From positions 1 through 51,661 of the forward strand of contig CAMYMF010000043.1 of assembly GCA_947259355.1 (NCBI GenBank): a stretch of 51,661 nt of DNA, given 5' to 3'. The notes beneath the pieces are model-generated. The model saw nothing but the letters and a program-made list of their open reading frames with translations. It was not told the origin of the DNA and did no database searches. Positions 31,879-51,661 of the stretch are shown one piece after another; position 1 is the first letter of the stretch, and every line of letters starts with the position of its first letter. The stretch comes from an uncultured Nitrospirota bacterium (lineage in GTDB: Bacteria > CG2-30-53-67). The translations under genes were made by a program, and so were the position numbers.

Positions 31879-31959
<81 letters not shown>

Positions 31960-32085: not shown

Positions 32086-32116
32086 TCGCAGGTTCGAGTG
32101 CTGCCGGGCGGTGCCA
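32086..32116 (+). pseudogene. 3' fragment of a tRNA-Arg gene
   Basis: Near-copy of the T-arm and acceptor 3' end of the tRNA-Arg(TCG) gene (compare 31929-31960), with one substitution (CGAGTG for CGAGTC) and one inserted base before CCA. No 5' half is present. It may be left by recombination between spacers or by an element that used the tRNA 3' end. Confidence 0.75.
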
Positions 32117-32162
32117 GTTAATTGGGGGATTGATACCCCATTTGAAGGTCGAAACAGAAGAA

Positions 32163-49169: not shown

Positions 49170-49178
49170 TGTTATACT
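49170..49178 (+). promoter_or_regulatory. Extended -10 promoter of the riboswitch transcript
   Basis: TG at 49171 onward in GTGTTATACT: an extended -10 (TG-T-TATACT, box 49173-49178). No good -35. Transcription would begin near 49185, just before the candidate GEMM RNA. Confidence 0.6.
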
Positions 49179-49196
49179 GGAGATACAAATAGATAG

Positions 49197-49284
49197 ATCG
49201 CACCAATAGAAAAGCAAATCCCGGGCAACCGGGTGGCGCAAGACCGCCTGTCCCTGATGAGCGGGGATCGAGAGGTTGTCCAAG
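49197..49284 (+). ncRNA. Candidate GEMM-I cyclic-dinucleotide riboswitch
   Basis: The leader of the HD-GYP gene follows the GEMM-I plan. GCAAA (49214-49218) is followed by stem P2, CCCGG with a GNRA loop GCAA and CCGGG (49220-49233). TGGCGCAA (49234-49241), matching the conserved GACGCAA, comes next, then a second stem closed by TCCC/GGGGA, and GGTTGTC, which can pair with GCAA. The base before GCAAA is A; c-di-GMP types have G there and the cGAMP-responsive Geobacter subtype has A. The position that usually holds the ligand-contacting C near the 3' end is not clearly conserved, which lowers confidence. Confidence 0.5.
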
Positions 49285-49304
49285 TGAGAATGCAAACGCC
49301 TGGT

Positions 49305-49343
49305 CTGGCCCCCTCGTGGTTCGCGGGCTTTTTGGGGGTCCAG
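49305..49343 (+). terminator. Possible expression platform after the GEMM candidate
   Basis: CCC.CG / CG.GGG hairpin (49311-49327) followed by C and TTTTT (49329-49333) could terminate. The same C-run can instead pair as CTGG.CCCC (49305-49313) with GGGG.CCAG (49335-49343). The two structures are mutually exclusive, as expected for a transcriptional switch. Confidence 0.4.
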
Positions 49344-50995: not shown

Positions 50996-51661
50996 ATGCG
51001 AGAAAAGCAGGGCAGCATACTGCTCATTGACGATGAACCGGTGATCATCGATTTTTTGCGCGCCATTCTGGAGGCCGATTATTCGCTCCGTTATGCAACG
51101 AATCCCTTCGACGGGCTGGCCCTTGCTCGGGCCAACCAGCCGGACCTTATTCTCCTGGATATCGCAATGCCCGAGACCGACGGCTATCACCTGTGTCGTA
51201 CCTTGAAAGCCGATCTGCTGACCCAGTCCATTCCGATCATCTTCATCACCGCTCTCACGTCGCCTGATGATGAAACCCGCGGACTCGAGGCAGGTGCGGT
51301 GGACTACATTGCAAAGCCCATCAATGCCAGCGTCGTCAAGGCGCGGGTCGGCAACCACATGGAACTGAAAAGGCAGCGGGATTTTCTCGAAACCCTTGCT
51401 TCCGTGGACGCATTGACGAGCATCCCCAACCGCCGGGGCTTCGACGACTACCTCGACCGGGAGTGGCGCCGCGCGGCGCGCATTCAAACCCCCCTCTCAC
51501 TCCTGATGATTGACATCGATTACTTCAAGGCATACAACGACAATCACGGCCACCTTGCCGGAGACGACTGTCTTAAGGCCGTTGCCCGACACTTGAGAAG
51601 TGTGCCCCGCCGAGGGGGCGATTTCGTCGCACGGTTCGGCGGTGAGGAATTCATGGCCGTG
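50996..51661 (+). CDS. Response regulator with GGDEF cyclase domain (3' end beyond window)
   Basis: About 222 codons are visible; the frame runs off the window end. ATG at 50996 with GAAGGAG 9 nt upstream. Receiver: SILLIDDEPVIIDF, phospho-Asp in LILLDIAMPETDG, and AKP. The GGDEF domain starts at about 135 (VDALTSIPNRRGFDDYLD), has the metal Asp in LMIDIDYFKAYND and the signature RFGGEEF. This is a PleD/WspR-type architecture with one receiver, and the active site appears intact. GGDEF proteins make c-di-GMP; some hybrid-promiscuous members in deltaproteobacteria make cGAMP, distinguished by a residue in the substrate pocket that I did not assign. Confidence 0.92.
   Translation, partial: MREKQGSILLIDDEPVIIDFLRAILEADYSLRYATNPFDGLALARANQPDLILLDIAMPETDGYHLCRTLKADLLTQSIPIIFITALTSPDDETRGLEAGAVDYIAKPINASVVKARVGNHMELKRQRDFLETLASVDALTSIPNRRGFDDYLDREWRRAARIQTPLSLLMIDIDYFKAYNDNHGHLAGDDCLKAVARHLRSVPRRGGDFVARFGGEEFMAV

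Follow-up and report, generated by a model that had tools for sequence, protein, structure and literature searches.

Which cyclic dinucleotide does a GEMM-I riboswitch sense when the bases that read its ligand have both been changed? The question is raised by a leader close to the right-hand end of the window, as we call the whole stretch of 51,661 nucleotides that was analyzed (contig CAMYMF010000043.1 of an uncultured Nitrospirota bacterium). A first-pass annotation, made from the letters and the open reading frames, had placed a GEMM-I-like riboswitch there, before HD-GYP and GGDEF genes, and had taken the A at its ligand-discriminating position as the mark of a 3',3'-cGAMP sensor. The features of the locus are listed in Table 1. 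The papers cited by PMC number are represented by excerpts, and what is attributed to them holds for those excerpts.

The leader element is a genuine GEMM-I riboswitch aptamer by fold. The covariance search with RF01051, by which the first-pass annotation had proposed to check the element, gave a match on the + strand at 49203-49283 with 43.3 bits against a gathering cutoff of 35 (E 3e-5, window search); in the organism's own genome (G000; 3.1 Mb, 94 contigs, 89.7% complete) seven of eight RF01051 matches at E ≤ 0.001 lay above the cutoff. Among the competing related models, RF03168 (c-di-GMP-I-UAU) was the top scorer at the site, but at 51.1 bits its gathering cutoff of 65.9 was not reached and position 20 is A, not U, which leaves the window aptamer outside that family; for the counterpart in the sister genome G001, RF03168 was also the best model, at 57 bits and under the same cutoff. 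The order of the GEMM-I motifs was as claimed, with GCAAA at 49214-49218, the GNRA loop GCAA at 49225-49228, GGCGCAA at 49235-49241, and GGTTGTC at 49274-49280, and P2 with its GNRA loop, G21-C46, A47, and P3 were all in place. In an alignment of 24 aptamers of our own picking, RNAalifold predicted 18 P2 and P3 pairs, 14 of them with pair-keeping changes on both sides. The minimum-energy fold of the aptamer alone was only slightly better than those of shuffled sequences (z -1.5; 17 of 200 shuffles equally stable) and thus lends no support by itself. A GEMM-I junction is closed by a P1 that includes upper pairs; in the window aptamer these are absent, with U14/C93 and A13/C94 unpaired and only the outer CAC/GTG left.

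Table 1. Features of the riboswitch leader and operon (positions in the window)
Feature	Position	Strand	Basis
Extended -10 promoter element TGtTATACT	49170..49178	+	Read from sequence; TGcTATACT in sister leader
GEMM-I (c-di-GMP-I) aptamer	49201..49286	+	RF01051 and RF03168 scores, P2/P3 covariation; outer P1 CAC/GTG only
A20, first base to read the ligand	49213	+	Alignment; G in sister ortholog
P2 CCCGG-GCAA-CCGGG, GNRA tetraloop	49220..49233	+	Sequence, RF03168 match, RNAalifold covariation
A47, base stacked between both ligand bases	49240	+	Alignment; role per PMC9049102 (excerpt)
P3, GACC/GGUU base and distal UCCC/GGGA stem	49242..49277	+	RF03168 match, folding, covariation
U92, second base to read the ligand (most GEMM-I have C)	49279	+	Alignment; U in sister too
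Possible intrinsic terminator CCCTCG-TGGTT-CGCGGG-CTTTTT	49311..49333	+	Scan match 49313-49327; sister hairpin
REC-GAF-HD-GYP protein, 521 aa	49415..50980	+	Pfam PF00072, PF01590, PF13487
REC-GGDEF protein, continues past window end	50996..51661	+	Pfam PF00990, PF00072; Asp (GHLAGD), GGEEF

Vc2 numbering was transferred through the RNAalifold pairs and published structural descriptions, not by aligning the Vc2 sequence. In these descriptions, position 20 directly precedes the first P2 pair G21-C46, which A47 follows immediately, and position 92 is the last base before the 3' strand of P1 (PMC6274999, PMC9049102). The placement of position 20 is anchored by the first P2 pair (columns 23-50), which was G-C in 24/24 aptamers. 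The alignment bore out that the base before GCAAA is an A at Vc2 position 20; U92 in place of C and the unpaired top of P1 were both absent from the first-pass annotation. Since A20 and U92 replace G20 and C92, the guanine-reading pair of GEMM-I, the window aptamer is a GEMM-I member by fold and not by pocket.

This combination of bases is rare. Positions 20-47-92 of the 24 aligned aptamers were G-A-C in 13, G-A-U in 8, A-A-C in 2, and A-A-U in the window aptamer only. All 37 phylum aptamers at E ≤ 0.001, from the seven genomes having any (G007, the eighth, gave no GEMM-I match at this threshold), were read by script and eye, position 20 of L060 and L037 by eye, and comprised 26 G20/C92, nine A20/C92, one G20/U92 (the sister), and one A20/U92 (the window). 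A scan for the U92 type with position 20 left free covered 84,980 bacterial and archaeal species, possibly leaving out records near the window's genome, and returned 15 stretches, eight of which were confirmed by covariance models and seven not. The confirmed aptamers came from the sister, another Nitrospirae bin, four Geobacteraceae, a Desulfuromonas, and a Marinobacterium; all eight were G20, none was A20/U92, and the U20 of the Rfam UAU consensus occurred in 0/8. The scan pattern was strict, so divergent members would be missed. Two phylum-wide pattern searches for A20/U92 aptamers, which reached one genome each, returned nothing, and none of 18 matches in viral contigs was aptamer-like by eye, all looking like coding sequence. 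A literature search on variant families, C92U, U92, and c-di-AMP, with most of the key papers outside its coverage, yielded no description of a natural A20/U92 GEMM-I. In most of the G20/U92 aptamers from Geobacteraceae and one Nitrospirae bin (L099, L106, L107, L111, and L112), J1/2 is by eye shorter by one base, and a clear terminator follows closely.

The HD-GYP protein has an ortholog in G001 only, with 85% identity over the full length; in the other six genomes, the (near) full-length matches listed reached at most 35% and shorter ones up to 47%. The sister operon (G001:C22) has the same upstream neighbors as the window operon, a rhodanese gene and a gene that by eye is oxidoreductase-like. 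The first-pass annotation had staked its claim on the structure recurring in orthologous leaders, and a GEMM-I aptamer was indeed present in the sister leader. Between the two leaders, the aptamer core was identical at 58/67 positions (87%), compared to 54/108 (50%) upstream and 76/131 (58%) from the aptamer to the start codon (core versus the two long flanks, Fisher P 8e-7), and as this identity lies far above that of the flanks, the core looks selected. Identity was 15/21 in the -10 region, 6/13 in the 13 bases 5' of the aptamer, 7/13 in the P1 5' strand with J1/2, and 6/7 in the P1 3' strand. The sister aptamer is G20/U92; U92 is present in both leaders and A20 was seen in the window only. 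P1 is topped by C-G and G-C pairs in the sister and has lost them in the window, and P2 pairs better in the window (CCCGG/CCGGG) than in the sister (CCAGG/CCGGG).

The position of the riboswitch 5' of HD-GYP and GGDEF genes was corroborated by Pfam matches. The substrate pocket of the GGDEF domain, suggested earlier as a check for a hybrid cyclase, did not show the Ser/Thr of the Hypr type at the base-reading position and has Asp instead; Asp together with GGEEF is the combination reported for a plain diguanylate cyclase (PMC6456294). The substrate of the HD-GYP protein is not readable from its sequence, and the proposed feedback circuit of HD-GYP and GGDEF on the signal is a guess. A DACNV protein with a weak DAC domain is encoded some 11 kb 3' of the aptamer on its contig (L097:12017-13387), and a similar protein is also found downstream of the operon in G001. 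Elsewhere in the window, between 31404 and 32292, repeated AT-rich stretches (gaaatagaaaatagaaa and complements) occur in the spacers between five tRNA genes, and the tRNA at 31883-31956 seems to have its 3' end duplicated at about 32086-32117.

The other regulatory parts proposed for the leader fared unevenly. The extended -10 promoter sequence is there and the sister has kept it, but a consensus scan, which needs a -35 element, did not call it on the + strand. The terminator-like hairpin exists as well, although 0.5 scan matches per shuffle are expected on both strands of the region, and the sister hairpin has the same loop with seven U compared to five in the window. The antiterminator that was to oppose it, a pairing of the P3 3' strand with the 5' arm of the hairpin, was found by eye in both species and was no better than chance, as 22% of shuffles for the window and 25% for the sister paired equally well, and is therefore not used as evidence. 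In unconstrained folds of both leaders, J1/2 also paired with the distant terminator tail; this pairing was matched by 36% and 7% of shuffles and, if real, would explain A20 as a compensatory change. The fold energies were -44.7 with the antiterminator versus -40.2 with aptamer and terminator in the window, and -33.7 versus -33.4 in the sister. Because of these relative energies, an OFF switch is our guess from the modeled folds.

The signal enzymes of the lineage were surveyed in the eight phylum genomes. The DAC (c-di-AMP cyclase) domain was found in 8/8 and a classical c-di-AMP riboswitch in 1/8, which is not the organism's own. GGDEF domains gave 112 matches, and 75 distinct segments, taken from 96 loci (20 loci were without a segment, and the weakest matches lay outside the sample), had Asp in 65, Ser in 5, and Asn in 5 at the base-reading residue. 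The Asn residues belong to a conserved set with GGEEF (GH..GN) that has members in four relatives as well as in the own genome (L014, L171, L178, L184, and L186). The Ser-type proteins are Hypr, GacA-like GAF-GGDEF orthologs, one per genome in 5/5 other family genomes (L220:2787-4223 in G001 and L225-L228 in G002-G005), 73-74% identical to the G001 copy and all with the GGDEF motif, the sole motif seen with Ser/Thr in the excerpted survey (PMC6456294). In G001, a dCache-HAMP-HD-GYP gene lies directly 3' of the Ser-type gene. The closest solved chain is 6d9m, titled as a response-receiver, GAF diguanylate cyclase fused to endolysin, which we take to be GacA of Geobacter metallireducens; the GSQ motif is common to both. 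These GacA-like proteins probably synthesize cGAMP in the lineage. A Ser-type GGDEF was not found in the own genome at 89.7% completeness, where the surrounding 7 kb block is missing too; an assembly gap is likely there, as the rest of the block gives only weak, paralog-like matches.

A group of A20/C92 aptamers in six genomes starts with CTTTGCTCAGAGCAAACC (L006, L007, L050, L051, L052, L058, L059, and L064). Several lie 5' of genes for secreted fn3-like proteins, their P3 often contains long hairpin inserts, and their P1 3' strand overlaps a strong terminator, an ON-switch layout by eye. A literature search on cGAMP signaling in Nitrospirae-like bacteria, of the same limited coverage, found no mention of this lineage, in which such signaling can be tested through the GacA-like cyclases and this aptamer group.

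For the window aptamer, the reading of A20 as the mark of a cGAMP-type GEMM-Ib riboswitch was not supported. A20 is there and C92 is not, U92 standing where the Geobacter cGAMP RNA has C75 (= C92), which pairs with the ligand (PMC9262584), and the sole ortholog found is G20. A20 with U92 is the pair that was engineered into Vc2 for c-di-AMP, with a structure solved in complex with that ligand (PDB 3MUV; PMC7288161), so cGAMP does not follow and c-di-AMP is at least as likely. The same double change left Vc2 with a c-di-GMP Kd of 4900 nM compared to 0.011 nM in the wild type (PMC9049102). If the pocket rule applies, the window pocket would read an adenine on either side, and the sister pocket on one side only. 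By this analogy c-di-AMP is, tentatively, the leading single ligand, followed by cGAMP; affinity for the usual signal c-di-GMP should be low, and the window riboswitch probably does not sense it. The covariance matches, the conservation of the core, A20/A47/U92, 3MUV, the 4900 nM Kd, and the DAC domains in all eight genomes count in favor of c-di-AMP. Counted against it are the 7/13 identity of J1/2 and the P1 5' strand with the sister, the lost upper P1, the own genome without a classical c-di-AMP riboswitch, the engineering of the pair in a Vc2 with intact P1, and the switching pairing within chance; in addition, since all eight other confirmed U92 aptamers are G20, A20/U92 is without an independent natural parallel.

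With c-di-AMP as the ligand, the riboswitch in the leader would control a two-gene operon whose products, an HD-GYP phosphodiesterase and a GGDEF cyclase, are response regulators. Its pocket would have been re-coded on both sides, at position 92 first (common to the sister) and at position 20 later (in the window lineage only), and would prefer adenine at both ligand bases. Ligand binding might then let the hairpin at 49311-49333 terminate transcription, and the signal might lower HD-GYP/GGDEF expression, coupling c-di-GMP turnover to another cyclic dinucleotide. More doubtful is the full scenario, in which a natural GEMM-I was switched to c-di-AMP by the very changes engineered in Vc2, with the sister half-way (G20/U92, cGAMP expected) and separate c-di-GMP-type and cGAMP-type switches in the same genome.

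The operon could instead answer cGAMP from a Hypr GGDEF, A20 or U92 letting the pocket take the mixed dinucleotide. A20 is the Geobacter cGAMP type, which A20G shifts to c-di-GMP (PMC6456294), and C92U alone is reported to permit cGAMP (PMC12032345). The Ser-type cyclases of the five other family genomes also fit, the block in the own genome being probably lost to an assembly gap; the window, however, has both bases changed and lacks the C92 that the natural type keeps, the nine A20/C92 phylum aptamers are better cGAMP candidates, and no Ser-type GGDEF was found in the own genome. We consider cGAMP unlikely as the ligand. A tolerant, low-affinity c-di-GMP sensor, whose changed bases still pair guanine by other geometries, would suit the canonical c-di-GMP enzymes encoded by this turnover operon and the G20/U92 aptamers conserved in Geobacteraceae, and natural A20 and U92 variants of Vc2 are said to bind c-di-GMP by alternative pairing; the Kd of the Vc2 double change makes such a sensor improbable nonetheless. 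Position 20, for its part, was called a selectivity factor and not a hard filter (PMC9262584).

As the top of P1 is lost, the aptamer may also be decaying, regulation being lost in the window lineage with A20 and the missing upper P1 as first steps. We think this unlikely too: the core is conserved far above the flanks, the -10 element is kept, and P2 pairs better than in the sister, against which stand a J1/2 conserved no more than the flanks, an expression platform within chance, and an A20 that the sole ortholog does not have.

The fold and genomic place of the window riboswitch are ordinary and its pocket is unusual. Should the pocket rule hold, three second messengers would be served by a single aptamer fold within one lineage, and the order of the changes, U92 before A20, would offer a natural test of riboswitch ligand change; a c-di-AMP switch, if true, would be a ligand change caught between two species of one genus. 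If the rule fails, the lesson of the locus is that cGAMP riboswitches must not be annotated from A20 alone.

In comparison to the c-di-GMP-I riboswitch (RF01051, GEMM-I; Vc2), the window aptamer has the same fold, GCAAA, P2 GNRA loop, G21-C46, A47, and above-gathering score, and differs in A20/U92 for G20/C92, in the missing upper P1 pairs, and in having no recognized 11-nt tetraloop receptor (by eye). U92, A47, and a similar P3 and P1 region are shared with c-di-GMP-I-UAU (RF03168), from which it is set apart by A20 instead of U20 and by its score below gathering. The GEMM-Ib cGAMP riboswitches of Geobacter have A20 in common with the window aptamer and C92 in contrast to its U92. The engineered Vc2 G20A/C92U (PDB 3MUV) carries the same ligand-reading bases, A20 and U92, but keeps its own J1/2 and an intact P1, whereas the window aptamer is natural and its P1 is altered.
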